Shown one piece after another: positions 27,151-42,989 of a stretch of DNA of 45,339 nt. This DNA is from an uncultured Phenylobacterium sp. (lineage in GTDB: Bacteria; Pseudomonadota; Alphaproteobacteria; Caulobacterales; Caulobacteraceae). How positions within the stretch are numbered: position 1 is the first letter of the stretch; the number at the start of each line of letters is the position of its first letter. The stretch is taken from assembly GCF_902826855.1 (NCBI RefSeq), contig NZ_CADEGK010000002.1:1-45339 (forward strand), given 5' to 3'. Both the position numbers and the translations under genes were made by a program. The notes below the pieces were generated by a model. It had not been told where the DNA came from. It ran no database searches and saw only the letters and a program-made list of their open reading frames with translations.

Positions 27151-27172
27151 AAAAAGGCCCGCTAGCGCGGCC
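27151..27172 (-). terminator. terminator of the urease operon
   Basis: On the minus strand, GGCC…GGCC arms around GCGCTAGCG include the ureG stop codon and run straight into TTTTT (27151-27155). The stem has an internal mismatch, but the T-run and position at the operon end support termination. Confidence 0.55.
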
Positions 27173-27782
27173 CCATCTGCAGGCCGCCGCGTTCCGCCAC
27201 GAAGTCGACGACCTGGTCGACGCCCATGACACGCGTCAGGTCGGTGAACACGAACGGCCGATCGCCTCGCTGGCGGGCGGCGTCGCGACGCATCACCTCG
27301 ATGTCGGCGCCCACATAGGGCGCGAGATCGGTCTTGTTGATGATCAGGAGGTCCGACCGGCTGATCGCTGGACCGCCCTTGCGGGGGATCTTCTCGCCCT
27401 GGCAGACGCTGACCACGTAGAGCGTGAGGTCGGCCAGGTCCGGAGAGAAGGTGGCCGCCAGGTTGTCGCCGCCGGACTCGATGAAGATCACCTCCAGGTC
27501 CGGGAACCGCGCGCTCATCTCGCGGACGGCGGCGAGGTTGATGGAGGCGTCCTCACGGATGGCGGTATGCGGGCAACCGCCGGTCTCCACCCCCATGATG
27601 CGCTCCTCGGGCAAGGCCTGCAGGCGCGCCAGGATCAGGGCGTCTTCGCGGGTGTAGATGTCATTGGTTATGACGGCGATCGACCAGCGGCCGCGCATCG
27701 CCTTGCAGAGCTTCTCCACCAGGGTGGTCTTGCCGGCGCCCACCGGGCCGCCGACACCGACGCGAAGGGGACCGTGGATCAT
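27162..27782 (-). CDS. ureG: urease accessory GTPase UreG
   Basis: 206 residues from ATG 27782. P-loop [10 protein letters not shown] near residues 14-23, then the Ni-binding CPH motif in [30 protein letters not shown] (switch) and [13 protein letters not shown] (guanine specificity). It hydrolyses GTP to drive nickel delivery and Lys carbamylation in urease, together with UreD, UreE and UreF. Its ATG overlaps the ureF stop (TCATGA), the normal arrangement. It is the last gene of the urease operon and is followed at once by a terminator. Confidence 0.97.
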
Positions 27783-28456
27783 GAGAGGAACAGCCTTCCG
27801 TCCAGGGTTTCGTGCCGCATGGCGGCGATGTCGGCGGCGATCGCGCAACCGCCCAGGTCGTCCTCGCTAGCGGTCGCCGCGCGGGCGGCCAGATTGGCGA
27901 TGCGAGGCGCGATCCGGGCCAGGATACGCACCGCTCCCGCTTGGCCGCACAGGGACAGCCGCACGCCGGCGGCGATCAGGTTGGCGGCGAAGCCCGTGAG
28001 ATAGGCGGCGATGGCGTCGGTCGCGGGCGCGCCCAGGGCCGCCGTGCTCCACCCTGCCGTGACGGGGTAGGGCGTGGCTTCCAGTCCCGGTGGCGCCAGG
28101 GCCGGCCAACCTTCGCGCACGGCGGCGACGAAAGCGTCGCCCTGGCCCAGGGTCTCGGCTCTTCGCTCGCGTGAAGAACAGAGGGCCATGGCCAGGACGC
28201 CGACGTCACGCCAGGCGCCGACGTCGCGCGTCTGGCCCGCGTTCCAGGCGAGGTTCATCAGCACGGCGTCCGACCAGCCCCCACCGCGCATCAGCACGTC
28301 CTCCAGCCACGCCCCCAGCCAGGCTTCGTCCGCAGCCGGATGGGCCGCGGCCGCCTCGAGCCCATGCGACCAGGCGAATCCACCGGTGGGGAAGGCTGGC
28401 GAGAACCAGGCGAACAGCAGGGCCGGAAGCGCCGCTGGGCCGGGGTCAGTGTCCAT
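27779..28456 (-). CDS. ureF: urease accessory protein UreF
   Basis: 225 residues from ATG 28456 ([15 protein letters not shown]). The family's N-terminal signature is [19 protein letters not shown], followed by an all-helical body. UreF bridges UreD and UreG in the apo-urease activation complex and gates GTP hydrolysis. The start lies inside the 3' end of ureE (11-nt overlap) and the stop overlaps the ureG start, so translation is coupled on both sides. The much longer open frame upstream of this ATG is the His-rich end of ureE read in another frame. Confidence 0.93.
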
Positions 28457-28934
28457 GGGCGTGGCCGTGGCCGGGGTGATGGCCATGCGGGATGTGCGCG
28501 CCGCCGTAGGCCCCGCCTTCCGGATCGAAGGGCGCGTCCAGCTCACGGACGGTCGCCCCCAGGCCCGCCAGCATCTCGGCGATGACATGGTCGCGCCGGA
28601 TGAGGATGCGGTCTGCTTCGACCTGCGCCGCCAGGTGGCGGTTGCCGATGTGCCAGGCCAGGCGCAGGAGCGCGGGCGCGTCGGTGGCGCGAACCTCCAG
28701 CAGGGCCTCCTCGCGGGCCGTCACTTCCACCAGCCGGCCGTCTTCCAGGCGCAGCGCCGAGCCGCCCGCGAGCCGACGGCTCTCCGGGAAATCCAGCATG
28801 AACCGCGTGCCGTGTTCGGCCGTCAGCACCAGGCGGCGTCTATGGCGATCGTCGTAGTCCAGGCAGATGTGGTCGGCGGCGTGTCCGCGCCATTGGCCGG
28901 GGTCCAGCACCTCGATGACGCGATGCGGGGTCAA
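28446..28934 (-). CDS. ureE: urease accessory nickel chaperone UreE
   Basis: 162 residues. It begins at TTG 28934, which overlaps the ureC stop (TTGA), a start chosen from the UreE fold beginning [12 protein letters not shown]-terminal domain: [20 protein letters not shown]; the metal-binding C-terminal domain has [20 protein letters not shown] with the conserved His. It ends in a His-rich tail ([15 protein letters not shown]) that stores or delivers Ni(II). Classical UreE dimer in the cytosol, donating nickel to the UreG/UreD/UreF complex. Confidence 0.93.
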
Positions 28935-30640
28935 AACAGAAAATACCTTTGCGCCATGGGCAGGACATCCGCCGGTTCGCAGACCAGCAGTTCGCCGTCG
29001 GCGCGTACTTCATAGGTCTCGGGATCGACCTCCATATGGGGCGTGGCGCTGTTGTGGATCATCGAGGCCTTGCCGATCCCGCCGCGGGTGTTGTTCACCG
29101 CCAGGAGGGATTTCTGGGCGCCGATACGGCCGGCCAGGCCGTCGTCCACGGCGGCCTGGGACACGAAGGTCACCGACGAGCGGATGAGCGCGCCGCCATA
29201 GGCCGCGAACATCGGCCGATAGTGCACGGGCTGGGGCGTCGGGATCGAGGCGTTGGGGTCGCCCATCAGCGCACAGGCGATGGACCCGCCCAGCAGGACC
29301 ATGTCGGGCTTCACCCCGAAGAACGCCGGGCTCCACAGCACCAGATCGGCGCGTTTGCCGGCCTCCACCGAGCCGATGTGGCGGGACAGGCCGTGGGCGA
29401 TGGCCGGGTTGATCGTGTACTTGGCGATGTAGCGCTTCACGCGCGCATTGTCGGCCGCGCCGTCGCCGGGCAGCGCGCCGCGCTGGAGCTTCATCTTGTG
29501 GGCGGTCTGCCAGGTTCGCAGGATCACCTCGCCCACGCGACCCATGGCCTGGCTGTCGGAGGAGATCACCGAGAAGGCCCCGATGTCGTGCAGGATGTCC
29601 TCGGCGGCGATGGTCTCGCGCCGGATGCGGCTCTCGGCGAAGGCCAGATCCTCGGGGATCGAGGGGTCCAGGTGGTGGCACACCATCAACATGTCGAGGT
29701 GCTCGTCCACCGTGTTGCGCGTGTAGGGCCGCGTCGGGTTGGTGGATGAGGGGATCACATTCGGCAGGCCGCAGATCTTGATGATGTCGGGGGCGTGGCC
29801 GCCGCCGGCGCCTTCGGTGTGGAAGGCGTGGATCGTGCGGCCATTGATGGCGGCCACCGTGTCCTCGACGAAGCCGGCTTCGTTGATGGTGTCGGTGTGG
29901 ATCATCGCCTGCACGTCGTATTCGTCCGCGACAGACAGGCAGCAGTCGATGGCCGCCGGTGTCGTGCCCCAGTCCTCGTGCAACTTCAGCGCGCAGGCGC
30001 CGGCGAGGATTTGCTCCACCAGGCCCTCGGGTCGCGATGCGTTGCCCTTCCCTGCGAAGCCGATGTTCATGGGGAAGGCGTCGGCCGCCTGGATCATTCG
30101 GGCCAGGTGCCAGGGCCCGGGGGTGCAGGTGGTGGCGTTGGTGCCGGTGGCGGGGCCCGTGCCGCCGCCCAGCATGGTGGTGATCCCGCTGGCCAGCGCC
30201 TCCTCGATCTGCTGGGGGCAGATGAAGTGGATGTGGGCGTCCATGCCGCCGGCCGTGAGGATCTTGCCCTCGCCGGCGATCACTTCGGTGCCCGGCCCGA
30301 TGATGATGTCGACGCCGTCCTGGATGTCCGGATTGCCGGCTTTGCCGAGCCGGACGATCAGCCCATCCTTCAGGCCCACGTCGGCTTTCACGATGCCCCA
30401 GTGGTCGATGATCAGGGCATTGGTGATGACCGTGTCGACGGCGCCCTGGGCGCGCGTGACTTGGCTCTGGCCCATGCCGTCGCGGATGGTCTTGCCCCCG
30501 CCGAATTTAACCTCCTCGCCGTAGGTGGTGAAGTCGAGTTCCACCTCCACGAACAGCTCCGTGTCGGCCAATCGCACGCGGTCGCCAACCGTGGGGCCGT
30601 ACATGCCGGCGTAGGCTGCGCGGGAGAGCCGCATGGCCAT
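28931..30640 (-). CDS. ureC: urease subunit alpha (catalytic)
   Basis: 569 residues, the normal length. Nickel ligands can be read: AHIHF (the two early His), LKLHEDWG with the Lys that is carbamylated, [12 protein letters not shown], and the flap [11 protein letters not shown]. The Asp ligand is in [13 protein letters not shown]. It hydrolyses urea to ammonia and carbamate. The ATG at 30640 touches the ureB stop (TGATG); ATG 30634 is an alternative. It is the cytosolic catalytic subunit, assembled with UreA and UreB. Confidence 0.98.
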
Positions 30641-30945
30641 CAGAGGTCGCCCATCGCGGCGCCGCGGAAGCCGATCACTCTTCGCGCGCCGGTGAAGGGG
30701 ATCAGGGTCACCTCCCGCGACTGGCCCGGCTCGAAACGGACAGCCGACCCCGAGGGCGCGTCCAGCCGCAGCCCCCAGGCGGCCTCGCGGTCGAACCGCA
30801 GGGCGGGATTTGTTTCCGCGAAGTGGTAGTGGCTGCCGACCTGGATCGGCCGATCGCCGGCGTTGGCGACCAGCAGGACCAGCGTCGCCGCGGCGCCGTT
30901 CAGGACGACCTCGCCGTCACCGGGGATGATCTCGCCGGGAATCAC
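30640..30945 (-). CDS. ureB: urease subunit beta
   Basis: 101 residues from GTG 30945 ([15 protein letters not shown] is the family N-terminus, which decides the start). Further signatures: [40 protein letters not shown] and the end [11 protein letters not shown]. It caps the UreC active-site layer in the (ABC)3 assembly. The GTG overlaps the stop of the HupE-like gene (GTGA), so this small membrane-protein gene is translationally inserted between ureA and ureB. Confidence 0.96.
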
Positions 30946-31223
30946 GGCTGGCCGATCAAGCCCAGCGCCAGCGCGCCCAGCGCGACAACGCCGCCGAGGA
31001 GGCGCGCTACCGGCGGGCGGCGAAGCCGTAGTGCGATCAGCCACAAGCCGAGGCTTGCGGCGACCAGCAGGGCGGCGGAAGCCACGACGTGATCGGGGCC
31101 GGTGTGCGGATGGGCCAGGCCCGAGGCAAGGACGGCCTCGCCGTGGCCGGGATGGCCGAGGGCGGGGCCGACGGCCAGGAGCGCGGCCGTCACGGCGGAG
31201 GCCAGAACAACGGCTGTCTTCAT
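30942..31223 (-). CDS. miniature HupE/UreJ-like membrane protein
   Basis: 93 residues, about half the usual 190-200 of HupE/UreJ nickel permeases. A signal-like first segment ([20 protein letters not shown]) is followed by [20 protein letters not shown] and DHV, a good match to the HupE metal-site motif (LHP-TG-DH), then two membrane segments ([20 protein letters not shown] and [16 protein letters not shown]). Later HupE helices are absent, with no downstream remnant because the frame overlaps ureB. Position inside the urease operon favours a nickel role, as a small transporter subunit or a periplasmic Ni-binding anchor; both are inference. Confidence 0.75.
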
Positions 31224-31239
31224 GGGGGTCCCTTCGGGT

Positions 31240-31542
31240 TCACCGGATAGGCTCGTGGACGGTCACGAGTTTGGTTCCATCAGGAAACGTCGCTTCGACC
31301 TGGACGTCGTGGATCATCTCGGCCACGCCCTCCATCACCTGGCCGCGGCTCACCACGTGGGCGCCCGTCTCCATCAATTCGGCCACGGTGCATCCATCGC
31401 GGGCGCCTTCCACGACGAAATCGGCGATCAGCGCCATGGCCTCGGGGTAGTTCAACTTGACCCCACGCTCCAGGCGCCGGCGCGCCACGATCGCCGCCAT
31501 GCTGATCAGCAGCTTGTCCTTTTCGCGCGGAGAAAGGTTCAC
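31240..31542 (-). CDS. ureA: urease subunit gamma
   Basis: 100 residues, exactly the family size. [43 protein letters not shown] and the end VHEPI are diagnostic. It is a structural subunit of the urease trimer. It starts 4 nt after ureD and is followed by the HupE-like gene after 16 nt; GAAAGG lies near the start on the minus strand. Confidence 0.97.
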
Positions 31543-31546
31543 GCTG

Positions 31547-32368
31547 TCACACCGTCCAAAGACGCGGTGGCAGGGCGCCTCCGCGAAGCGCCGCCATCAC
31601 GGCCATCAGGGTTTGCCGCAGGTCGCGTGCGTCCGCGGTGGCGATGCGGCAGATCAGCTTTCCGTCCCATGCGCTCGCTCCGCCGTTGTCGCCCAGAACC
31701 TGGAGCACGGCGTCGAGAACGGCCTCAGCGTCCTCGGCGATCAACAGCACGAGAGCGAAGGCGGCGGCGTCGCGCAGCAGGGCAGGGCGCCCGGCTGTTG
31801 AGGGCCCAGCATCGAGGCGAAGCTCGTCTGCGAATATTAGTCGTTCACCCCATTGCACGCGCCAACGGTCGCGCAACCGGGCGCGGATCGCGGTTTCGCC
31901 CATGGCGTGACGGCCGAGCACGACCGCCTCGGTGGCCAGCAGGCGCGCCCCCGGCGCCAGACGCACGTCGAAGCGACGTTCAAGGCGTGCGCCCTCGAAG
32001 AGGATGGTCTCCTGCGGCAGCCATTCCAGGCTCGCACCGGCGGCCAGATCGATCCGCACCGCGACACTGGCCGGGTCGTCGCTGGCTGCGCGATAGACCT
32101 TCTCGCAGGCTTGTGTGACCACCCGACAACGTGCGCCCTCGACCAAGTCGACGCCCCAGGCGAATCGGTCGCCGCCCGCTAGCCCGCCAGCGGTGTTCAG
32201 CAGCACCGCCTCGCGCGTGTTGTCCTCGGTCCGGCAGAACCGGATCTTGGCCGACCCGGACTGATGGAGCCGCTCCAGCGCAACTCCGGGCCCCGCTCGG
32301 AACCAGCCCTCGCCCACGGCCCGCTGCGGCGAAGGCGTCGCGGCGCGGGAAGCTGGGAGCATGTCCAT
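31547..32368 (-). CDS. ureD: urease accessory protein UreD
   Basis: 273 residues from ATG 32368. Family features: [70 protein letters not shown] and the end [13 protein letters not shown]. UreD forms the scaffold of the activation complex on apo-urease. It is the first gene of the operon. ATG 32362 is a possible alternative; no strong ribosome binding site is visible at either. The shared motif TTTGACGTATT lies 70 nt upstream, in the gap toward the divergent porin gene. Confidence 0.93.
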
Positions 32369-32437
32369 CGGGCGAAACTGGCGACTGACGATCGCCCTGT
32401 CCACACGTGGGCCGCAGGAAACCGCGCAGCTACGCGC

Positions 32438-32448
32438 TTTGACGTATT
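32438..32448. promoter_or_regulatory. urea-locus motif TTTGACGTATT between ureD and the porin gene
   Basis: The 11-mer TTTGACGTATT (plus strand) is repeated exactly at 38138-38148 before urtA, and its inverted core TACGTCAAA occurs at 38192-38200. Here it lies 70 nt from ureD and 100 nt from the porin start. It contains a -35-like TTGACG, but no -10 box follows at 16-18 nt, so a regulator site is more likely. Confidence 0.5.
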
Positions 32449-32547
32449 CAAAATTCGCCCAGGAAAACGATCGTTGAGATCTCGATCGCATTCGGACCGG
32501 AGAGAAGATTCTCCGAGCGATGCGGTCATGTGCCGGGGGATAGACTT

Positions 32548-33708
32548 ATGCGAGACAACTCTGCCTTCACCTATGCTTGCCGGCGCATGTTCTGCGCAGG
32601 CGTCGGAGCGGCGGCGCTGATGGCTCCGTTGAGCGCGGCTCATGCCGGCGGACTGATCAAGATCGGCGACGGCGATCAGTCCATCAGCATCGGCCTGGGC
32701 ATCCGCGCCAGCGCCAACAGCGACGAGCACGGCGCCTCCGACGGCTCCCGCTCCACGGATGTCAGTCTGGACAGCGTCCGCCTCTACGTGAACGCCGAAG
32801 TCACCAAGACGATCGGGGCCACCTTCAACACCGAGAAGGACGGCGACGACGACATCAAGGTCCTGGACGGCTACGTCCGCTGGCAGCCGATGGATGAGTT
32901 CAACGTCTGGGTCGGCCGCATGCTGCCGCCGAGTGACCGCGCGAACCTCGACGGCCCCTACTACCTCAGCTCCTGGAACTACCCCGGCGTGGTGTCGCAA
33001 TACCCCGCCAAGTTCGCCGGGCGCGACAACGGGGTCACGGTCTGGGGAAAGGTGTTCGACAAGAAGCTGACCTATGCCGTCGGCGTGTTCAACGGCCACA
33101 ACAGGGCCCTTACCGCGTCGAACAAGGGCCATGAGCCGCTCTTCGCGGGGCGCGTCGCCTACAACTTCCTCGAGGTCGAGGACAACCCGGGCTACTACAC
33201 CAGCAGCACCTACTACGGCTCTGCCGACATCTTCACGGTGGCGTTCGCGGTGCAGTCCCAGAAGAACGGCGTGGGCACCGCGCTGGTCCGCGGCGACTAC
33301 ACGGCCTGGAACGTCGATGTTCTTTTCGAGAAGAAGGTCATGGACGGCGGCGCCATCACGCTGGAGGGCGCCTACTACGACTATGACACCGATGGGGTGC
33401 TGGACGTGCCGCCCGGCTTCGGCGGCGCGGGCCCGACCGACAACGTCGGCGGGATCGTCGACGGCAAGGCCTTCCTGGCTTCGGCGGCCTTCCTCTTTCC
33501 GACCGAAGTCGGGCCCGGCAAGTTCCAGCCAGTCGTCCGCTATCAGGAGTTCGATCCCAGGGTCGGCCCCACGGTCGAGGCCTACGACATCGGCCTGAAC
33601 TACATCATCAAGGGTCACAACGCCCGGCTGTCCGCGGTCTGGCAGCATGTCGATGCCGGGGCCGCCGACAACGACCGGCTCACCGCCGGCGTCCAGCTGC
33701 AGTTCTAG
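32548..33708 (+). CDS. outer-membrane porin, probably for urea or amides
   Basis: 386 residues from ATG 32548, with GGGGGA upstream. Signal peptide ending PLSAAHAGG. The rest is beta-barrel with alternating strands and polar turns (SLDSVRLYVNAEVTKTIGAT, GYVRWQPMDEFNVWVGRMLP, KVFDKKLTYAVGVFNGHN) and a C-terminal aromatic (GVQLQF), resembling the phosphate-selective porin (OprO/OprP) superfamily. Such porins often sit next to urt genes; urea specificity is inferred from location between urease and transporter operons. Divergent from ureD across the TTTGACGTATT site. Confidence 0.85.
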   Translation: MRDNSAFTYACRRMFCAGVGAAALMAPLSAAHAGGLIKIGDGDQSISIGLGIRASANSDEHGASDGSRSTDVSLDSVRLYVNAEVTKTIGATFNTEKDGDDDIKVLDGYVRWQPMDEFNVWVGRMLPPSDRANLDGPYYLSSWNYPGVVSQYPAKFAGRDNGVTVWGKVFDKKLTYAVGVFNGHNRALTASNKGHEPLFAGRVAYNFLEVEDNPGYYTSSTYYGSADIFTVAFAVQSQKNGVGTALVRGDYTAWNVDVLFEKKVMDGGAITLEGAYYDYDTDGVLDVPPGFGGAGPTDNVGGIVDGKAFLASAAFLFPTEVGPGKFQPVVRYQEFDPRVGPTVEAYDIGLNYIIKGHNARLSAVWQHVDAGAADNDRLTAGVQLQF

Positions 33709-33847: not shown

Positions 33848-34753
33848 TCAGTTGGAGATCACCCGCGTGGCGATGGCCGCTGCGGCGGCGCGGTTCTCCA
33901 CCCCCAACTTGGTGAAAACCTGCTCCAGGTGCTTGTTCACGGTGCGTGGACTGATGCCGAGGATCTCAGAGATGTCGCGGTTCGACTTCCCGGCTGCAAT
34001 CCAGACCAGCACCTCGGATTCACGGATGGTCAGGCCGAGCGCCGAGCGCAGCAGGTTGGCCTCGCGGCCTTCGATCAGCTGGCTGAGCCGGAAGTAGGAG
34101 GCGTCGTCCGCCCCGCCCACATAGGCCACCTCCAGCGTCGCCGCCCCGCTCTCTATCCGGGCCGAGGGAATGCCCGCCTCGTGGCGGCGCTGAATGAGGC
34201 CGCAGAGCGCCTTGCCGAGCGTCGAGGGCAGGCCGTCGCCGTCGTTGGGGCCGAGTGCGGCCAGCATTGCCTCGGTCTGGGGCGTCCGCCACAGCAACCG
34301 GCCGGCGCCATCGGTCGCCAGCATCGCGCGCCCAGCCACGTCCAGGGCGACCCGGGCGCTGTGCGCGATGCGAGCGGTCGCCAGGTGGACGCTGATCCGC
34401 GCCGCCAGTTCATCCAGGATGATCGGCTTGGTGACATAGTCCACGCCGCCGGCGTGGAGGCCCTCGATGACGTGTTCGGTCTCCGCCAGCCCGGTCAGGA
34501 AGATCACGGGCAGGTGGGCCAGGTCGGGGTTGGCCTTCATCCGTCGGCAGACCTCGAAGCCGCTCATACCCGGCATCACCGCGTCCAGCACCACAAGGCC
34601 GGGCCGCGCCTGGGCGGCCAAGGCCAGTGCGCTCTGGCCGTCCGCCGCCGGCAGCACGTTGAACTGCGCCTGGCGCAGGCCTGCGGCCAACATGTCGCGG
34701 GTCTCGGCGTCGTCGTCGACCACCAGGATGAGGTCGCGCGTGTCCGGTGTCAC
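33848..34753 (-). CDS. LuxR-type response regulator with an extended linker
   Basis: 301 residues from GTG 34753, which overlaps the kinase stop (GTGA). Receiver domain 1-125: LILVVDDDAETRDMLAAGLR, phospho-Asp in LVVLDAVMPGMSGFE, Thr in VIFLTGLAE, Lys in YVTKPIILDE. Residues about 130-230 are a linker with PAS-like hints (GRAMLATDGAGRLLWRTPQT). The C-terminal LuxR helix-turn-helix is LTIRESEVLVWIAAGKSNRD, then ILGISPRTVNKHLEQVFTKL. It is the obvious partner of the permease-kinase and the best candidate to bind TTTGACGTATT; the latter is inference. Confidence 0.92.
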   Translation of the reverse strand: MTPDTRDLILVVDDDAETRDMLAAGLRQAQFNVLPAADGQSALALAAQARPGLVVLDAVMPGMSGFEVCRRMKANPDLAHLPVIFLTGLAETEHVIEGLHAGGVDYVTKPIILDELAARISVHLATARIAHSARVALDVAGRAMLATDGAGRLLWRTPQTEAMLAALGPNDGDGLPSTLGKALCGLIQRRHEAGIPSARIESGAATLEVAYVGGADDASYFRLSQLIEGREANLLRSALGLTIRESEVLVWIAAGKSNRDISEILGISPRTVNKHLEQVFTKLGVENRAAAAAIATRVISN

Positions 34754-37700
34754 GTGGATGCGGCCTCCTCGCCGGCCTTCGTCCATTCCAGGTTGAGCAG
34801 GGTCCTCAGGCGGTCAAACAGGTCATCCACCTCGTAGGGCTTGAGCAGGTAGTCGTCGTGCGGGTCGTCCTCGCGCCAGCCTCGCGAGAAATCGTGGGCG
34901 TTGGCCGAAATCATCAGGATCGATAGCTCATCGCCGTGCTCGTCACGCAACGCCCGGGCCGCGTCCCAGCCGTTCATTCCGGGCATCGCGATGTCCATGA
35001 TCACCAGGTCGGGAGGGTCGCGACGCGCCGCCTCCAGCGCCTGCTCCCCGTCACGGGCGAAAGCCAGTTCAAATTCGAGCGACTGCAGAAACTGGCGCAC
35101 CAGGTCGAGGTGGGTCGGGTCGTCGTCGGTGACCAGGATGCGGCGGCGGCGGCCCAGGTAGCCGCCGATCCGCATCGTATCGGCGCCGCCCTTGGCCGGC
35201 GGCGGGGTGTCGCTGAGGAACAGCTTGACGGTGAACGCACTGCCAACGCCGAGCTCGCTGCGAACGGTGATGTCGCCGCCAAGCACCACGGTCAGCACCT
35301 TGGTTATGGTCAGCCCCAGGCCGACCCCCGGCCGACCCGCCGCCCGGCCCAGCCGTTCGAACGGTTCGAAGATGCGTTCAAGATCCTGCTTGGCGATGCC
35401 CATGCCGGTGTCGGAGACGACGAACTCGGCCGTGTGGCCGCGCCACTCGACGGTCAACGCCGCCTCGCCGGCATCGGTGTACTTGATGGCGTTGGACAGC
35501 AGGTTGATCAGCACCTGCCGCAGGCGTTTCTCGTCCACATAGATGTGCGTGGGCAGGGTGTCGGGCCAGGAATGGCGGAAGGCGAGGCCCTTGCTGGTCG
35601 CCTGCAGGCGGAACATGTCCACGATCTGGTTGAGCAACTCGATCAGGTTCACCCGGCTGCGCTCAAGCCGCAGCGCGCCGTTTTCGATGCGCGAGATGTC
35701 CAGGAGGCCATTCACGAGGTCGGACAGGTGGGTGGCGCTGCGGCGGATCACCCGGACCGCGTCGGCGGCGTGCGCCGGATCGCGTTCCAGCAGCTGGGCG
35801 TAGCCGGATATGGCGTTGAGCGGCGCACGGATTTCATGGCTGACGCCGACGATGTAGCGGCTCTTGGCGAGGTTGGCGTGTTCGGCCGCCTCCTTCGCTT
35901 TCTGCAGGGCGGCGTCGGTGCGCTGATGGGCTTCGATCTCCTCCAGCAGCATTGTCGTCTGGCGATCGCTCTCGCTCTCCGCGACACGCTGGTTCTCGCG
36001 GGCCAGGACGAAGAACCAGCCGGCGAACGAGGCGAGTGAGAACAGCGCCAGGAACACCATTACCAGGGTGTTGCGGATCGCGTCGGGGTCGGCCGCGCCG
36101 CGCGCTTGCTGGTAGTAAATCGCCCCCAGCACCGCCCACAGCGCCAGGGCCGACAGCAGCAGCACGCCCAGAAAGCGCGCCACCACGGCATAGCCGCCCT
36201 CGGTGAGGCGAGCCGGTGCGATCCGCCGCAGCAGGCCGGCGGCCTGCTCCACCACCTGTGAGTCTTCCTTGCAGGCGTCGTGGCAGCGCGCCTCCAGCGT
36301 GCAGCAGAGCGAGCAGATCGGCCCGGCGTAGACCGGGCAGAACGCCATGTCGGGCCGCTCGAAGGCGTTTTCGCAGACCGTGCAGACCAGCTCTGTCTGC
36401 GGCTGCGCGGGCAGGCTGTCCTCCCGCGCCAGGTAGTAGCGGCTGCGGGTGAGCCAAGCGATGGTCGGGGCCAGGCCGAACGCCACGCCCAGCCCAATGA
36501 GCGGCGACAGCGCCTGGGCGGTGGACCCCAGGGCGCCCAACGAAAGTGCGGTGGTGACGGCCAGCGATCCGCCCATGGCGCCCACGCCCACAGGATTGAC
36601 GTCGTAGAGGTGAGCCCGCTTGAACTCGATGCCCTTGGGACTGAGACCAAGGGGCTTGTTGATCAGGAGGTCGGCGGTGACCGCCCCCATCCAGGCGACG
36701 GCGAAATTGGCGTAGATCGTCAGGATCTTCGCCACCACCGTGACGATCCCCACCTCCATGAGCAGGAGCGCCACGGCGATGTTGAAGACCAGCCAGACCA
36801 CTCGGCCCGGGTGCCGGTGGGTGAGGCGGGAGAAGAAGTTTGAGGCCGCGATCGAGCCGGCGTAGGCATTCGTGACGTTGATCTTGACCTGGCAAACCGC
36901 GACGAACAGGCCGGTCAGCACGAGGGCCGCCGTCGGGCTGCTCAGCAGGCCCTGGAAGACGATGTTGTAGAGGGCCGCTGGCGCTGTGGCGTCGGCGAAC
37001 GGCAGGCCGCGGCCGATGGCGACATAGGCCAGGGCAGAGCCGATCAGGATCTTCACGCCGCCCAGCAAAATCCAGCCGGGACCTGCAAGGGTCAGGGCGG
37101 TCCACCAGCCCCGGTTCGGCCCGTCCGTCCGCTTCGGCGGGAGGAAACGCAGATAGTCGACCTGTTCGCCAATCTGCGGGAGCAGCGAGAGCAGCACAGC
37201 AAAACCGGAGGCGAACATCGCCAGGTCGAACCCGCGTCCGGCGATCGGACTGTAGCGGACCCAGCCGTCCAGCTGGGTGTGGTTGAGCGCCAGGTAGACC
37301 AGCGGGGCCAACTGCAGCACCAGCCAGATCGGCTGGCTCCAGGTCTGCATCCAGCTGATGCGACGCACCCCGTAGGCGGCGATAGGGATCACCACCACGG
37401 CGCTGATGACATAGCCCAAGGCCAGAGGGATCTGGAAACACAGCTTGAGCGCGGCGGCCATGATCGCCGCCTCGATGGCGAACAGGATGAAGGTGAAGCC
37501 CGCGTAGATCGCTGAGGTGATCGTGGAGCCGATGTAGCCGAACCCCGAGCCGCGGGTCAGCAGGTCCATGTCCACGCCGTAGCGGGCGGCGTAGTAGCAG
37601 ATTGGAAATCCCGTCACCACGATGACGCCGGCCATGGCGATCAGCGCGGCGAGCGCGTTGATGAAGCCGAACTCCAGGGTGATGGTCGCCCCCACGGCCT

Positions 37701-37914
37701 CGCAGGCCAGGAAGGCGATCGAACCCAGCGCGGTGTTGGCGATCCGCGACAGGGGCCATCGGCGGGCGCCTTCGGCGGTGAAGCGCAGCGCGAAGTCCTC
37801 AAGGGTCTGGTTGGCGGCCCACTGGTTGTATTGCCGTCGTGTGCGCACCACCCGCTGTCGGCGCTCCACCACACGCCGGGGCGGGTTCGAATCGCGGATC
37901 GGCTCGGCGGTCAT
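34750..37914 (-). CDS. NCS1-permease hybrid histidine kinase (transporter-sensor fusion)
   Basis: 1054 residues. Residues about 30-500 are a complete nucleobase:cation symporter-1 (purine/cytosine permease) type domain with about twelve membrane segments (LEDFALRFTAEGARRWPLSR, INVTNAYAGSIAASNFFSRL). Residues about 505-555 hold a Cys-rich module (CTVCENAFERPDMAFCP, then CSLCCTLEARCHDAC), probably zinc-binding. Two more helices follow (about 570-640), then HisKA (GVSHEIRAPLNAISGYAQ), HATPase (NLLSNAIKYTD, VSDTGMGI, GVGLGLTI) and a receiver (LVIMDIAMPGMNGWDAAR, LLKPYEV). It lies between urease/porin and urtABCDE, so it likely senses urea or a related nitrogen compound; whether it also transports is unknown. 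GTGA-coupled to its regulator. Confidence 0.93.
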   Translation of the reverse strand: MTAEPIRDSNPPRRVVERRQRVVRTRRQYNQWAANQTLEDFALRFTAEGARRWPLSRIANTALGSIAFLACEAVGATITLEFGFINALAALIAMAGVIVVTGFPICYYAARYGVDMDLLTRGSGFGYIGSTITSAIYAGFTFILFAIEAAIMAAALKLCFQIPLALGYVISAVVVIPIAAYGVRRISWMQTWSQPIWLVLQLAPLVYLALNHTQLDGWVRYSPIAGRGFDLAMFASGFAVLLSLLPQIGEQVDYLRFLPPKRTDGPNRGWWTALTLAGPGWILLGGVKILIGSALAYVAIGRGLPFADATAPAALYNIVFQGLLSSPTAALVLTGLFVAVCQVKINVTNAYAGSIAASNFFSRLTHRHPGRVVWLVFNIAVALLLMEVGIVTVVAKILTIYANFAVAWMGAVTADLLINKPLGLSPKGIEFKRAHLYDVNPVGVGAMGGSLAVTTALSLGALGSTAQALSPLIGLGVAFGLAPTIAWLTRSRYYLAREDSLPAQPQTELVCTVCENAFERPDMAFCPVYAGPICSLCCTLEARCHDACKEDSQVVEQAAGLLRRIAPARLTEGGYAVVARFLGVLLLSALALWAVLGAIYYQQARGAADPDAIRNTLVMVFLALFSLASFAGWFFVLARENQRVAESESDRQTTMLLEEIEAHQRTDAALQKAKEAAEHANLAKSRYIVGVSHEIRAPLNAISGYAQLLERDPAHAADAVRVIRRSATHLSDLVNGLLDISRIENGALRLERSRVNLIELLNQIVDMFRLQATSKGLAFRHSWPDTLPTHIYVDEKRLRQVLINLLSNAIKYTDAGEAALTVEWRGHTAEFVVSDTGMGIAKQDLERIFEPFERLGRAAGRPGVGLGLTITKVLTVVLGGDITVRSELGVGSAFTVKLFLSDTPPPAKGGADTMRIGGYLGRRRRILVTDDDPTHLDLVRQFLQSLEFELAFARDGEQALEAARRDPPDLVIMDIAMPGMNGWDAARALRDEHGDELSILMISANAHDFSRGWREDDPHDDYLLKPYEVDDLFDRLRTLLNLEWTKAGEEAAST

Positions 37915-38137
37915 CGGCAGGTCATGGCGGGTCCTGGTGCGCAGTCCAAGGTCGGCCGGCCGTCCTGGAAACGGAATGCGTCCGAGGGGTCTGAAGCGAT
38001 GCGGCGCTCCGCCTGCCGTGAAATCGGGCGCTCAACGGGCTGCTCGTGGCACTTCGGCAGGATTTGGGTCTTTCGGGCGGCGGCCGGGGGAACGTGCGCA
38101 GCAATGTCCCGACGTGATCCGCTCGAGACATGGGGCG

Positions 38138-38200
38138 TTTGACGTATTGTCCGATCCCGTCGGTGCGCGGGTCGAGACCCCGTCCAACGCCTACGTCAAA
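38138..38200. promoter_or_regulatory. paired TTTGACGTA sites in the urtA upstream region
   Basis: TTTGACGTATT at 38138-38148 and its inverted core TACGTCAAA at 38192-38200, centres 54 nt apart (about five helical turns). They lie in the 392-nt gap between the permease-kinase and urtA; the rest of that gap shows no other clear element, and no sigma-54 (-24/-12) promoter spacing was found. The repeat of the 11-mer seen before ureD/porin suggests one regulator for all three units. Confidence 0.52.
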
Positions 38201-38306
38201 TGGCGCATGCCGACCTTCGGCGCCCCCTGCACATAGTCCTGGTCACATCGGATCGCCCGGCATGACGCCGGTCGTCCGGCGATACTTTTGCAGAGGGGTC
38301 TGAGAA

Positions 38307-39533
38307 ATGGTCATGGGGGTGAAGGCAGGGCGCTTGGTCGCGGTTCTGCTGATGGGCGCGGCCTTGGTGGCCTGTCAGAAGAAGGAAGAGGGCCCGGCGG
38401 CGGCGGCTGCCGGTGAAACCGTCAAGGTCGGCGTCCTCCACTCGCTGAGCGGCACGATGGCCATCAGCGAGGTGACGGTGAAGAACTCCACCCAGATGGC
38501 GATCGACGAGATCAATGCCGCGGGCGGGGTGATGGGCAAGAAGATCGAGGCCATCGTCGAGGATGGCGCCTCCGACCCCTCCATCTTCGCTCAGAAGGCG
38601 GCCAAGCTGACCGACGGCGACAAGGTGGTCACGGTGTTCGGCGGTTGGACCTCGGCCAGCCGCAAGGCGATGCTGCCGGTCTTCGAGAAGGCCAAGAACC
38701 TCCTGTGGTACCCCGTGCAGTTCGAGGGCAACGAGTGCTCGCCGAACATCATGTACTCGGGCGCCCAGCCGAACCAGCAGATGCTGCCGGCCTTGGCCTG
38801 GGCGAAGGAGAAGGGCTTCAAGACCTACTTCCTCGTCGGCTCCGACTACGTCTTCCCCCGCACGGCCAACCTGATCGCCCGCAAGCACATCGAAGGCGGC
38901 GGCATGAAGGTCGTGGGCGAGGAATATCAGGCGCTGGGCGGCACCGAGTTCTCCGGTGTGATCGCCAAGATCAAGGCGGCAAAGCCCGAGTTCGTCCTCA
39001 ACACCCTGAACGGCGACTCCAACGTGGCCTTCTTCAAGCAGATGGCGGCCGCCGGCCTGACTCCGGACAAGGTTCCGATCATGTCGCTCTCCATCGCCGA
39101 AGAGGAAGCGCTGTCCATGGGACCTGCGCTGGTGAAGGGATCCTATGCGTCCTGGAACTACTTCGAGACCCTGGATAGCCCCGAGAACGCCAAGTTCATC
39201 GAGGCCTACCGCGCCAAGTTCGGGGCCGACAAGGTCACCAGCGACCCGATGGTCCACGGCTATGTCGACGTCTACATCTGGAAGGCCGCCGTCGAGAAGG
39301 CCAAGTCCTTCGACCCTGCCGCCGTCCGCGCCGCCGCGGTGACCCTGGAGTCGATCCCGACGCCGCTGGGTGCGGTGAAGTTCATGGCCAACAACAGCTT
39401 GGTCCAGACCGGTTACATCGGACAGCTCGACGCGGCCGGCAAGTTCAAGGTGATCTGGACCTCGCCAGCTCCGATCGAACCCGAGCCCTACGACCCGGTC
39501 ACCTTCCCCGGCAAGACCTGCACGATCAGCTGA
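38307..39533 (+). CDS. urtA: urea ABC transporter substrate-binding lipoprotein
   Basis: 408 residues. Lipobox LLMGAALVAC gives Cys19 or nearby as the lipid-modified residue, so it is membrane-anchored in the periplasm. Family motifs: VKVGVLHSLSGTMAISE, NAAGGVMGKKIEAIVED, FGGWTSASRKAMLPVFE, LLWYPVQFEGNECSPN, GSDYVFPRTANL and TLNGDSNVAFFKQM, matching UrtA rather than branched-chain amino-acid binders. It binds urea (or short amides) and delivers it to UrtBC. GAGGGG precedes the start; ATG 38313 is an alternative. First gene of the urt operon. Confidence 0.95.
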   Translation: MVMGVKAGRLVAVLLMGAALVACQKKEEGPAAAAAGETVKVGVLHSLSGTMAISEVTVKNSTQMAIDEINAAGGVMGKKIEAIVEDGASDPSIFAQKAAKLTDGDKVVTVFGGWTSASRKAMLPVFEKAKNLLWYPVQFEGNECSPNIMYSGAQPNQQMLPALAWAKEKGFKTYFLVGSDYVFPRTANLIARKHIEGGGMKVVGEEYQALGGTEFSGVIAKIKAAKPEFVLNTLNGDSNVAFFKQMAAAGLTPDKVPIMSLSIAEEEALSMGPALVKGSYASWNYFETLDSPENAKFIEAYRAKFGADKVTSDPMVHGYVDVYIWKAAVEKAKSFDPAAVRAAAVTLESIPTPLGAVKFMANNSLVQTGYIGQLDAAGKFKVIWTSPAPIEPEPYDPVTFPGKTCTIS

Positions 39534-39565: not shown

Positions 39566-40456
39566 ATGGACCCGACCTTCCTCCTGGGACAAGTCTTCAA
39601 CGGCTTGAGCGTCGGGTCCATCTACATCCTGGCTGCGCTGGGCCTGGCGCTCAGCTTCGGCCTGATGCGGGTCATCAACATGGCCCACGGCGAGATCGTG
39701 ATGCTGGGCGGCTACATCGCCTTCCTCACCATCAAGCTTGTCCCCGGACCCCTGGGCATACCCGCCGCCATAGTGGCGGCGCTGATCGGGGGCGGCCTGC
39801 TGGGCGCACTCCTCGAAACCACCCTGGTGAGCCGGCTCGCGGACCGCCCGCTGGACACGCTGCTGGCCACCTGGGGCGTCAGCCTCATCGTCCAACAGGC
39901 CGCCCGCGACCTCTTCGGCGCCACCGGGGTCTCGGTCACTGCGCCCGCATGGCTGGACGGGGCGATCAACGTCGGACCCTTGTCGCTGCCGCTGGCGCGC
40001 CTGTTCATCCTGCTGGTCGCGGCGCTGGCGCTGGGCGGGCTGGCGGTGCTGCTCAAGACGAGCCGCATCGGCCTGCTGGTACGCGCCGCCAACCAGGATC
40101 GGGCTACGGCCTCGGCCATGGGTGTCAGCGTGCGGCAGGTGGACATGTTCGTCTTCGCTCTGGGTTCAGGGGTGGCGGGCGTCGCTGGCGTGGTGCTGGC
40201 GCTGCTGGGCCCCGTGACGCCTACCGCGGGCCAGAGCTACATCGTGACGGCCTTTCTGGTGGTGATCCTGGGCGGCCTGGGCAGCATCGTGGGATCGGCC
40301 ATCGCCGCCCTGATGATCGGCATCGTCTCGGCCATGGCCCAGGTGTTCGTCGACGCCAGCTTCGCCCAGGTGGTGACCCTCGTCTTCGTGATCATCTTCC
40401 TTCAGTTCCGGCCGCAGGGCGTGATCGCCGTCCGGTCCCGCGCCCTGGACGACTGA
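39566..40456 (+). CDS. urtB: urea ABC transporter permease UrtB
   Basis: 296 residues, LivH-type permease with about eight membrane segments. Diagnostic stretches: FNGLSVGSIYILAALGLALS, MRVINMAHGEIVMLGGYIAF, RAANQDRATASAMGVSV and VILGGLGSIVGSAIAALMIG. With UrtC it forms the inner-membrane channel. It starts 32 nt after urtA and ends 3 nt before urtC, so the operon is compact. Confidence 0.95.
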   Translation: MDPTFLLGQVFNGLSVGSIYILAALGLALSFGLMRVINMAHGEIVMLGGYIAFLTIKLVPGPLGIPAAIVAALIGGGLLGALLETTLVSRLADRPLDTLLATWGVSLIVQQAARDLFGATGVSVTAPAWLDGAINVGPLSLPLARLFILLVAALALGGLAVLLKTSRIGLLVRAANQDRATASAMGVSVRQVDMFVFALGSGVAGVAGVVLALLGPVTPTAGQSYIVTAFLVVILGGLGSIVGSAIAALMIGIVSAMAQVFVDASFAQVVTLVFVIIFLQFRPQGVIAVRSRALDD

Positions 40457-40459
40457 CCC

Positions 40460-41533
40460 ATGACGCTGTCCCCCATCAAGCTCGTCGGCGGCCTGGCGGC
40501 CCTCGCCCTGGCGCTGGCGGCCCCCTTCTTCCTGTCGTCCTACGACCTCAGCCTGACCGGCCGGTTCCTGGCGCTGTCGCTGACGGCCATGGGCCTGGTG
40601 CTGATCTGGGGCCATGGCGGCATCCTCAGCCTGGGGCAGGGGATGTTCTTCGGGCTCGGCGGCTACGTGCTGGCGATGCACCTGAAACTGGTGGCTCTGG
40701 ATGTGGGCGAAGCCACGCCGGACTTCATGGTCTGGTCGAACGTCGCCGCGCTGCCCTGGTGGTGGGCGATCTTCAAGAGCCCTCTGGTTACGATGCTGGG
40801 CATCGTCATCGTGCCGGGGCTGGCGGCGGCGGCGCTGGGCTGGCTGGTGTTCCGCCGGCGCATCGGTGGCGTCTATTTCGCCCTGATCACCCAGGCGGTG
40901 ACCCTCGCCTTCTCCACGCTGCTGATCAGCCAACAGGGGATGACAGGCGGCTTCAACGGCCTGACCAACTATAAGACCCTGCTCGGGTTCGACTTGAACG
41001 ATGCGGCTGTGATCCGCGGCGTCTACTGGGTGACCGTGGCGTTCGTCGCCGCGGCGTTCCTCGGCGGCTCGTGGCTGCTGAGCTCCCGCTTCGGACGCCT
41101 GCTGCGGGCGACACGCGACAACACCAACCGCGTGCGTTTCCTCGGTTATGACCCCACGCCCTACAAGATCGTCGCCTTCACGCTCGCCGGCGTTCTGGCG
41201 GGGCTGTCGGGCGCTCTCTTCGCGCTCCACGCCGGCGTGATCTCGCCGGCCCTGGTGGCCGTGACGCCGTCGATCGAGATGGTGGTCTGGGCCGCGATGG
41301 GCGGACGCACCAGCCTCGCCGGCGCCATCGCCGGCGCCCTGGCCGTCAACTTCGCCAAGGATAAGATCTCGAGCGTCTTCCCGGAGTTCTGGCTCTACGT
41401 TCTGGGGATCGTGTTCATCCTCGTCGTGACGGTGATGCCCAAGGGCCTGGCCGGCCTGTTCCCGACCCGGACGCGCAACACCGAGGCCGACGCGCCCGTC
41501 GTTCCCGCCGCACCCAAGGAGGTCGCCACGTGA
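40460..41533 (+). CDS. urtC: urea ABC transporter permease UrtC
   Basis: 357 residues, LivM-type permease of the UrtC subfamily: LVLIWGHGGILSLGQGMFFG, LISQQGMTGGFNGLTNYKTL, NRVRFLGYDPTPYKIVAFTL and MGGRTSLAGAIAGALAVNFA. The insert FMVWSNVAALPWWWAIFKSP between the third and fourth segments is a urt-type feature. Its stop overlaps the urtD start (GTGA at 41530-41533). Confidence 0.95.
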   Translation: MTLSPIKLVGGLAALALALAAPFFLSSYDLSLTGRFLALSLTAMGLVLIWGHGGILSLGQGMFFGLGGYVLAMHLKLVALDVGEATPDFMVWSNVAALPWWWAIFKSPLVTMLGIVIVPGLAAAALGWLVFRRRIGGVYFALITQAVTLAFSTLLISQQGMTGGFNGLTNYKTLLGFDLNDAAVIRGVYWVTVAFVAAAFLGGSWLLSSRFGRLLRATRDNTNRVRFLGYDPTPYKIVAFTLAGVLAGLSGALFALHAGVISPALVAVTPSIEMVVWAAMGGRTSLAGAIAGALAVNFAKDKISSVFPEFWLYVLGIVFILVVTVMPKGLAGLFPTRTRNTEADAPVVPAAPKEVAT

Positions 41534-42276
41534 GCGCCCCCCTGCTGCAGCTCGAGGGCGTTACGGTCGACTTCGACGGCTTCAAGGCCCTGAACGACCT
41601 GTCGCTGTCGCTGGAGCCCGGCAGCCTGACCATCGTCATCGGCCCCAACGGCGCCGGCAAGTCGACCATGTGCGACACCATCATCGGCCGCGTGCGTCCC
41701 ACGGCGGGGCGGGTGCTGCTGCGCGGCGAGGACATCTCCAAGCTGCGCGAGGACCGCATCGTGGGGCTGGGCGTCTGCCGCAAGTTCCAGACGCCGGGCG
41801 TGCTGGTGGGCCTCAGCGTGATCGACAACCTGGCCATCGCCGCCACCAAGGACCGGCGCTGGTGGAAGAGCTTCACCCTCGCCGGGCCGGCGGCCGGCCG
41901 CGAGCGGGCCGAGCAGGTGCTCGAGATGATCGGGCTTGCCGACCGCCGCGACGTACTGGCCGGCGAACTGTCGCACGGGGAGAAGCAGTGGCTGGAGATC
42001 GGCATGGTGGTCGCCACCGACGCCGAACTGATCCTGCTGGACGAACCCACCGCCGGAATGGGAGCGGCCGAGTCCACCAGGACAGCCCAGATCATCCTGG
42101 GGCTGGTCGGCAGGCACGCGGTGCTGGTGATCGACCACGACATCGACTTCGTCGAGCAGATGGGCGGCCATGTCGCGGTGCTGCACCAGGGTTCGCTGTT
42201 CAAGGAAGGATCGTTGGCCGAGGTCCGCAGCGACGCGGACGTCGCCTCCATCTACCTGGGAAGGCCACGCGCATGA
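41530..42276 (+). CDS. urtD: urea ABC transporter ATP-binding protein UrtD
   Basis: 248 residues from GTG 41530. Walker A GPNGAGKST, Q-loop around CRKFQTPGVLVGLSVIDNLA, signature LSHGEKQWLEIGM (the H variant typical of UrtD/LivG), Walker B LILLDEPTAGM and the switch His in VIDHDIDFVEQMG. It energises urea import with UrtE. Overlaps both neighbours by 4 nt. Confidence 0.96.
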   Translation: MSAPLLQLEGVTVDFDGFKALNDLSLSLEPGSLTIVIGPNGAGKSTMCDTIIGRVRPTAGRVLLRGEDISKLREDRIVGLGVCRKFQTPGVLVGLSVIDNLAIAATKDRRWWKSFTLAGPAAGRERAEQVLEMIGLADRRDVLAGELSHGEKQWLEIGMVVATDAELILLDEPTAGMGAAESTRTAQIILGLVGRHAVLVIDHDIDFVEQMGGHVAVLHQGSLFKEGSLAEVRSDADVASIYLGRPRA

Positions 42277-42989
42277 GCCAGTTGTTGAACTTGCGAGCCG
42301 TGGACGTGGCCTACGGCAAGAGCCAGGTCCTCTGGGACGTGGCGCTCGACATGAGGAAGGGCGAAGCGGGCGCGATTCTGGGGCGCAACGGCGTGGGCAA
42401 GACGACCCTCTTGAAAACCATCGTGGGACAACTGCGGCTGCTGAAGGGCCAAGTCTTCCTCAACGAGATCGACGTCAGCCGGCGCCAGGCGCACGAACGA
42501 GCCAGGACCGGCGTCGGCTTCGTCCCCCAGGGACGTCACGTGTTCCCCCACCTCACAGTCGAGGAGAATCTGAACGTCGGGCTCTCAGCCCTTTCGCCCC
42601 GCAAGGGCAAGCACCCGAAGAAGATCCCACCTTACATCTTCGACTTGTTCCCAAAGCTGCGCGACATCTCGCAGCGCAAGGCCGGCGTGCTGTCCGGCGG
42701 AGAGCAACAGCAGCTGGCGATCGGCCGCGCGCTCGCCGGGCGGCCGGACCTCCTGATCCTCGACGAGCCGACGGAGGGCATCCAACCCAACATTGTCCAG
42801 CAGATCGAACGCGCGCTTTCCACCATCCGCAGTGAGCTGGGCGTGGGCGTGTTGATCGTCGAGCAGAACCTGGATTTCGCCTGGGCCTTCGCCGACCACT
42901 ACTTCGTCATGCAGCGGGGGCGGATCGTGCAGCAGGGCCGCGTGGCCGAAACCTCCACGGCGGACATCGCCCACCTGATCCAGGTGTAG
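42273..42989 (+). CDS. urtE: urea ABC transporter ATP-binding protein UrtE
   Basis: 238 residues from ATG 42273 (ATGA overlap with urtD). Walker A GRNGVGKTT, GVGFVPQGRHVFPHLTVEEN, signature LSGGEQQQLAIGRALAGRP, Walker B LLILDEPTEGIQPNI and H-loop in IVEQNLDFAWAFAD. LivF-type. It is the last gene of the urt operon; the 242-nt gap to the next gene shows no clear terminator. Confidence 0.96.
   Translation: MSQLLNLRAVDVAYGKSQVLWDVALDMRKGEAGAILGRNGVGKTTLLKTIVGQLRLLKGQVFLNEIDVSRRQAHERARTGVGFVPQGRHVFPHLTVEENLNVGLSALSPRKGKHPKKIPPYIFDLFPKLRDISQRKAGVLSGGEQQQLAIGRALAGRPDLLILDEPTEGIQPNIVQQIERALSTIRSELGVGVLIVEQNLDFAWAFADHYFVMQRGRIVQQGRVAETSTADIAHLIQV

Follow-up and report, generated by a model that had tools for sequence, protein, structure and literature searches.

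The DNA analysed here, called the window throughout, is a stretch of 45,339 nucleotides from an uncultured Phenylobacterium sp. of the Caulobacteraceae (genome G000, contig NZ_CADEGK010000002.1), in which a hybrid histidine kinase with an entire permease domain of the NCS1 (nucleobase:cation symporter) type as its sensor is encoded between urease (ure) genes and the urea-uptake genes urtABCDE. Together with its LuxR-type partner response regulator, this kinase probably forms a two-component phosphorelay for urea and similar short-chain amides, in which the NCS1-type domain would be the receptor and the regulator would act on an 18-bp palindrome controlling urtABCDE. The computed evidence comprises the architecture of the protein, its NCS1-type fold, the conserved partner, the gene neighbourhood, the operator, and the co-occurrence of operator and kinase. 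From the genomic data we strongly infer that this system controls urt and ure, and it appears to be a conserved, apparently still unnamed two-component system for urea and amides whose sensor is of the NCS1 type.

The kinase gene is read on the minus strand from 37914 to 34750, and its product (1054 residues, against a family median of 1135; the relatives L096, L097, L099 and L100 are likewise short) is of the hybrid type, with HisKA, HATPase_c and Response_reg domains all above the Pfam cut-offs. Its partner is a NarL/FixJ-type regulator in which both Response_reg and the GerE helix-turn-helix were found; it may start at 34753, where the two genes overlap in a GTGA (34753-34750), or at an upstream ATG that would give an overlap of 37 bases. 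For residues 1-680 of the kinase zero Pfam families exceeded the cut-off, and residues 488-684, which contain a knuckle of eight cysteines, had no Pfam match at E ≤ 0.01, the STAC model not having been searched separately. Transp_cyt_pur (PF02133) in particular was not matched by the window protein (E ≤ 0.01), does not appear in the list of 25 families obtained with alignment A2 and its 59 sensors (E ≤ 1), and was matched nowhere in G000, where only the kinase matches the permease query. Since PF02133 was negative, NCS1 identity is argued instead from fold and transitive homology. An AlphaFold2 model of residues 1-680 was built from 59 sequences; 22 of the 80 loci retained from a scan of species genomes (see below) were omitted, L110, L122 and L129 with an in-frame stop inside the match and 19 near-duplicates by eye. 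The model reached a predicted local distance difference test score (pLDDT) of 87.3 and a predicted template-modelling score (pTM) of 0.87. In a Foldseek search against the PDB, ranks 1-5 are all Mhp1 or CodB (E 1.6e-8 to 2.4e-7; template-modelling score by target 0.64-0.78); the next match has an E of 2.6e-5, other LeuT-fold transporters follow further down, and SSS structures rank lower than NCS1, so that the domain does not present itself as an SLC5/SSS transporter domain. The stand-alone permease relative L038, at about 43% identity, does match PF02133 (37.8 bits, cut-off 23.5). Judged from model and homology, the sensor domain is NCS1 kin that has diverged past the Pfam model. A sequence search of the PDB with the single protein found no match, and a profile search gave just a doubtful zinc-ribbon match, CRIPT (E 0.68), which was rejected.

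A sequence-only reading of the window had described a single protein that joins an NCS1-type domain, a Cys-rich module, two extra helices, a kinase and a receiver, and that is GTGA-coupled to a LuxR-type regulator. These elements are all present: the kinase and receiver domains by Pfam, the helices (residues 575-604 and 610-679) in the AlphaFold model, where the second runs unbroken to the start of HisKA (684), and the NCS1-type domain by model, Foldseek and the PF02133-positive relative rather than by Pfam itself. As to the Cys-rich module, its eight cysteines (511, 514, 526, 534, 537, 538, 544 and 548) are invariant in 144/144 rows of a sensor alignment that counts the window and a GGDEF-EAL protein (see below) and leaves out the non-kinase L095 and L038; they probably form a metal site. 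Equally invariant in these 144 rows are Q247/E250/Q251/D253 of transmembrane helix (TM) 6 and K344/N346/N349/Y351 of TM8, and E72 of TM1 is present in 143 of them, the remaining row being a gap (TM numbers of the permease domain are taken from an alignment to CodB). In a remote alignment, the aromatic pair W108/F204 of CodB, which is conserved throughout NCS1 (PMC9379551), falls on F/L144 and L244 of the sensors; this pair being absent, the domain is unlike a nucleobase sensor, and nucleobase sensing is disfavoured. In the same alignment N280 of CodB corresponds to N349, the Na2 residue T279 to T348, and T278 to V347. The ligands would be urea or short-chain amides and not urea alone, a class that was widened because urt plus formamidase are the commonest neighbours. 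This reading draws on the neighbours, on the loci of stand-alone relatives, on the loss of the aromatic pair and on the precedent of MetT, an NCS1 protein that transports metformin, a linear nitrogen compound (PMC13390362).

The permease part was found only in G000 among 99 genomes of the same family and in 52 of 398 evenly drawn genomes of the phylum, G000 counted. A scan of 84,980 species genomes confirmed at least 578 relatives, of which the best 80 were retained; these best 80 include a kinase of a cyanobacterium (L170) and a protein of a Sulfurimonas metagenome-assembled genome (L171, 3864-7100, plus strand), in which the NCS1-Cys-two-helix module is joined to GGDEF and EAL domains in place of the kinase; the input module is thus portable. 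Apart from the window, the phylum sample gave 57 matches, and each was scored by tblastn in a stretch of at most 20 kb, urt being counted as present when two of urtA-C were found. The sequence-only reading had proposed to tabulate the neighbours of such fusions and had held that homologues consistently away from urea genes would speak against a role in urea use. They do not lie away from them: urt, urease or formamidase genes are near 53 of the 57 loci (53 of the 56 kinases), as urt with formamidase (35), urease (8), urt with urease (4), urt (4) or formamidase (2). The four loci with none are two at contig ends (L052, L094), one with urtA 6.5 kb away (L086) and the non-kinase L095, which is 27% identical. 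By the same rule, 0 of 28 other hybrid-kinase loci of the same genomes were positive. For this control, 31 genomes were searched and the highest-listed hybrid kinase other than the sensor was taken from each, with 10.5-20 kb around it; three genomes listed none. An ABC cluster in L197 does resemble UrtB-E weakly (82-161 bits), and those in L192 and L200 do so even less. Among the best 80 of at least 578 loci, 65 were positive and 15 were not; several of the latter are cut by contig ends, and some urea genes do occur in L096, L102, L113, L127, L152 and L154. The partner is conserved as well: leaving aside L095, 54 of the 56 sampled kinases (130/137 overall) have a LuxR-type regulator gene next to them in the same orientation, and for 43 of the 56 (102/137 overall) a divergent urtA (37) or ureA (6) starts no more than 1 kb away.

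Ahead of the urt, ure and formamidase genes lies a conserved operator, the 18-bp inverted repeat ATACGTCA-NN-TGACGTAT. In 80 non-redundant gaps between kinase and urtA (or ureA), each of the four commonest perfect dyads is present in 23-29, whereas 20 shuffles never gave more than 4. A position weight matrix (PWM) trained on 79 gaps, the window excluded, has the consensus ATACGTCA-AT-TGACGTAT and scores above the 99% level of the shuffles in 73 of the 80 gaps. The threshold of 15 was chosen after the shuffle null was known (99% at 11.2, maximum 17.2), so that sites scoring 15-17, such as copy 2 of the window, are weaker. The 45-kb window contains three sites above 13, its next best scoring 5.2 and ten shuffled windows reaching at most 12.2. 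Two of the three lie in the divergent kinase/urtA gap (37915-38306 with ATG starts) and one between ureD and the porin gene, a layout that would allow a single regulator to act on uptake, hydrolysis and entry through the outer membrane.

The placement of the sites holds beyond the training data. Of the 97 loci with a divergent gap, 82 hold a site of at least 15 there (92 sites, mostly training data); outside the gaps, 1.93 Mb contain 27 more. Twenty-six of these stand at most 450 bp ahead of a gene of the system (16 ahead of formamidase, by 80-167 bp; nine near the kinase start; one ahead of ureF), and the remaining one is followed by no query gene. The Novosphingobium sp. PP1Y locus L031 has the kinase, urea genes and two sites. 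The 56 loci outside training, the window among them, hold 38 sites in 26 loci (1.07 Mb), and 37 of the 38 lie at most 450 bp before the start of a urt, ure, kinase, porin, formamidase, amidase or stand-alone permease gene. In Sinorhizobium meliloti (L036) and in L080, L082, L083 and L086 the site accompanies urtA and not the kinase, which is 1.8-6.5 kb distant. The 28 control kinase loci had 0 sites in 540,592 bp. Kinase-free genomes for a second control were taken from the phylum, since urtA is rare in the home order (2 of 200 genomes at E ≤ 1e-100); in 40 hand-picked ones with urtA and no permease-part match in the phylum sample, 0/40 urtA upstream regions had a site, and two sites fell elsewhere in 229,781 bp. 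Three urease loci of kinase-free genomes (L218-L220) likewise had no site of 13 or more. The only other genome of these 200 with such a UrtA (G700) has a 1122-codon kinase reading frame with the knuckle, the regulator, urt, and an operator site (22.6) before urtA.

Whole-genome searches add cases in trans. In the window's own genome (4.9 Mb), the core is found with at most two mismatches at two places, 38192-38207 and L214, the latter with no urea gene within 3 kb; a backwards control also gave two, so that location, not count, is the evidence. Five kinases without nearby urea genes (four genomes, one plasmid record) were used for a trans test. In Azospirillum G779, two of the three near-matches stand before urtA (L282) and, in the ureD-ureA gap, before ureA (L284), the backwards control giving 2; in Marinomonas G780, the sole perfect match precedes urtA (L283), the backwards control giving 9, and 15 of the other 18 matches are one repeat-like word. 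This word, TACGTCAAATGATGTC, recurs in the latter genome (L174), partly in steps of about 245 bp on one contig, and is probably a repeat element. The other three kinases (L101, L105 and the L034 plasmid record) had zero near-matches. With a shared operator at urt and ure promoters, in the window and in trans in two genomes, the proposal of the sequence-only reading that the kinase governs urea use is supported.

Several observations weigh against this interpretation. The counts of the pattern are barely above the backwards control (2 vs 2 in the own genome, 3 vs 2 in trans), and 30 of the 56 untrained loci, seven of them kinase-free, have no site of at least 15. Nine loci (L035, L067, L069, L072, L084, L085, L096, L120 and L167) have the kinase and urea genes and no site even at 13. 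Where a genome with the kinase carries a second urtA, that gene has a site in 1 of 20 cases (L280), from which control appears to be mostly local. The kinases L091 and L092, with a formamidase-family gene nearby, have no receiver, LuxR partner or operator site, while the kinases of L101 and L105 (both on short contigs) and of the L034 plasmid record show no urea genes nearby and no operator near-match. Note also that the CodB Na+ ligand T278 is replaced by Val.

Stand-alone permeases of the same clade (L038 and L205-L212) are annotated as cytosine permease, allantoin permease or hypothetical protein, and 6 of these 9 loci contain urease (L038, L206), formamidase (L207, L210), aliphatic amidase (L212) or a formamidase/amidase cluster (L211). 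No urease, formamidase or amidase neighbour was found by annotation at L208 and L209, nor by tblastn at L205. Their neighbours make these permeases candidate secondary urea/amide transporters. The CxxC...CSLC tail is retained in L038, L205, L206, L207 and L208, and the cysteines are mostly lost in the Arthrobacter and Tsukamurella proteins. In TM1, all nine stand-alones have Y68 and D71, whereas the 55/55 sensors of the same set have F68 and E72, with L, C or M at residue 71; this difference goes back to few evolutionary events and is a lead rather than proof. The nine form one group in the tree (Shimodaira-Hasegawa-like approximate likelihood-ratio support 97), nested among the kinases, and with outgroup branches of 8-10 changes per site the tree does not decide between gain and loss of the kinase. 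In Acinetobacter (L205, 5290-10560), a kinase gene and the gene for a stand-alone permease of this clade are direct neighbours that diverge from each other, and the gap between the two holds an operator site (24.8). We tentatively suggest, as a possibility short of a probable one, that a single NCS1 clade may have given both urea/short-amide receptors (on histidine kinases, and on GGDEF-EAL in Sulfurimonas) and stand-alone urea/amide permeases, with TM1 as the switch and the cysteine knuckle as a metal-binding relay.

In the mechanism that we propose, the NCS1-type domain would bind a small amide directly, and a conformational change would travel by way of the knuckle and the two helices that follow it to His693; in the model, a continuous helix from the last membrane helix to the kinase offers what could be a direct mechanical path. 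Phosphate would then move from His693 to Asp974 and on to the LuxR-type regulator, which would bind the 18-bp palindrome and control urtABCDE and probably the kinase gene too, and, in the window, also ureDABCEFG and the porin gene. The sign of this control is suggested to be activation by the urea and formamide induction of an analogous cluster of Methylophilus methylotrophus (PMC10781810).

Alternatively, the regulon may be the same while the fusion itself also imports urea or amides; like CbrA, it would then be a transceptor, and its signalling would report turnover instead of occupancy. This is possible, though we find it rather doubtful: the entire permease fold is kept in the model, the 43%-identical stand-alone relative retains PF02133 similarity, and CbrA itself transports histidine, which has no significant effect on its kinase activities (PMC7096432), while against it stand the TM1 difference, which looks as if a coupling residue had been altered (in few evolutionary events), and the ABC importer that is also encoded at 43 of the 57 sampled loci by our own rule. 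It is unlikely, to take another arrangement, that the permease domain is an anchor and that the kinase reads the state of UrtABCDE, or ammonium or nitrogen supply, by protein contact. The mostly divergent orientation of kinase gene and urtA would suit such contact, but the kinases of L078, L081, L084 and L085 adjoin urease with no urt in the 20 kb read, the polar residues of TM1, TM6 and TM8 are as constant as stated above, which does not fit a plain anchor, and the same module serves a GGDEF-EAL protein in Sulfurimonas.

Quite unlikely, too, is a metal or redox signal at the eight-Cys knuckle (for instance nickel or zinc for urease), with the permease secondary. Urease requires nickel. The constancy of the eight cysteines in all sensor rows and the tail kept in five stand-alones count for this signal, but formamidase and urt neighbours are more numerous than urease, and the Arthrobacter and Tsukamurella stand-alones are mostly without the cysteines. 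That the sensor reads a purine-degradation intermediate (allantoin, allantoate or ureidoglycolate), as the NCS1 family name would have it, seems very unlikely; some stand-alones are annotated as allantoin permease and a xanthine dehydrogenase-family cluster lies near the kinase of Azospirillum lipoferum L034, but the neighbours are urt, urease, formamidase and amidase (the sampled loci were not searched for allantoin genes), and the sensor lacks the two aromatic residues seen in NCS1 proteins that bind heterocycles.

The system is also found on plasmids. Among 72,556 plasmid records, 527 contain a match to the sensor part; Klebsiella accounts for 342 of these, and a few of the matches are stand-alone permeases. 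Sinorhizobium meliloti Rm41 has such a plasmid match as well. In the one K. pneumoniae kinase plasmid examined, the kinase is divergent from a urt/formamidase cluster resembling the CG307/ST307 urea transport cluster, in the available text of whose accounts the term 'histidine kinase' is absent (PMC13060141, PMC5506382). The Methylovirgula plasmid pHY1 carries ureDABCEFG, a separate open reading frame (ORF), the kinase, the LuxR-type regulator and urt in a single cluster, and a second kinase with formamidase, a stand-alone permease and an aliphatic amidase.

The features of the window are collected in Table 1. UrtA, UrtC, UrtD and UreC were identified by NCBIfam cut-offs and the other urt and ure genes by tblastn. 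The formamidase-linked UrtAs of L033 and L037 also exceed the TIGR03407 cut-off, so that this model cannot tell urea from amide binders. The longest ureD ORF starts at 32491, in which case operator copy 3 would fall inside it. Another receiver plus LuxR-type regulator is encoded at 9477-10385 on the minus strand.

Table 1. Features of the kinase, urt and ure region of the window (positions in the 45,339-nucleotide stretch).
Feature	Positions	Strand	Basis and remarks
Hybrid histidine kinase with NCS1-type sensor, 1054 aa, ATG start	34750..37914	-	ORF, Pfam, AlphaFold model, Foldseek
NCS1-type permease domain, residues 24-488	36451..37845	-	Model, Foldseek, conservation
Eight-Cys knuckle, residues 508-549	36268..36393	-	Helix and short strands in model
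Two extra helices, residues 575-604 and 610-679	35878..36192	-	DSSP of model
HisKA, residues 684-746	35677..35865	-	Pfam; phosphoacceptor His693 by motif
HATPase_c, residues 794-900	35215..35535	-	Pfam
Response_reg (receiver), residues 926-1036	34807..35139	-	Pfam; Asp974 by motif
Partner response regulator, receiver and LuxR/GerE	33848..34786	-	Pfam
urtA	38307..39533	+	TIGR03407, 525 bits (cut-off 492.75)
urtB	39566..40456	+	BPD_transp_2; tblastn
urtC	40460..41533	+	TIGR03408
urtD	41530..42276	+	TIGR03411
urtE	42273..42989	+	Start by tblastn; inside ORF 41670-42989
Probable outer-membrane porin	32530..33708	+	ExtI model, 118 bits, below cut-off 150; ATG 32548 possible
ureD	31547..32368	-	tblastn; ATG 32368 preferred
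ureC	28931..30640	-	TIGR01792
ureA, ureB, ureC, ureE, ureF, ureG (span)	27162..31542	-	ORFs, tblastn
Operator copy 1	38191..38208	.	PWM 23.3; kinase/urtA gap
Operator copy 2	38130..38147	.	PWM 16.9, one strong half-site; kinase/urtA gap
Operator copy 3	32430..32447	.	PWM 17.6; ureD/porin divergent gap

With this kinase a new transporter family would join the few known transporter-kinase fusions. A urea or small-amide receptor for the induction of urt, urease and formamidase is unnamed in the available text of the literature surveyed; the kinase is a widespread candidate for it and comes with a partner, an operator and a predicted regulon. Neither an NCS1-kinase nor the operator is described in the open-access literature as far as its text was available, subscription papers being outside this scope. 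According to the sequence-only reading, no characterised NCS1-type kinase is known to govern urea use. The nearest accounts concern the gene clusters. The fmdCABDEF cluster of Methylophilus combines a porin, a formamidase and a binding-protein-dependent importer and is induced by formamide and urea; the available part of its account names no sensor kinase (PMC10781810). Pseudomonas veronii, which grows on formamide and acetamide, has an amiE-fmdA-fmdB-urt cluster, in the excerpted description of which the term 'histidine kinase' is absent (PMC13209695). In Ectopseudomonas guguanensis, a hybrid histidine kinase and a LuxR regulator are labelled in a figure and a LuxR-family two-component regulator stands beside urt operon III, with no permease domain, operator or function mentioned for the pair in the accessible text (PMC13296017). 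The ammonia sensor GrtK was considered as a relative and ruled out, being a 427-residue PilS-type protein (PMC12918730).

Among characterised proteins, the NCS1 permeases Mhp1, CodB and MetT are without a kinase; Mhp1 and CodB share the fold of the sensor part, and CodB has W108/F204 and both Na2 threonines, whereas in the remote alignment the sensor clade has no such aromatic pair and one of the two threonines (T348). The anammox protein Ks-Amt5 also uses the fold of a transporter of nitrogen compounds as kinase input (PMC5764959), but differs in its Amt fold and its ammonium ligand. The closest parallel in design is provided by the SLC5/STAC kinases CbrA, CrbS and RpuS, which likewise carry an entire N-terminal transporter domain on a kinase, CrbS being, as here, a hybrid kinase (PMC5715377). 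Differently from these, the window sensor is nearest to NCS1, another transporter family, has a cysteine knuckle at the position where STAC/PAS would lie, and is linked to a predicted urea/amide regulon.

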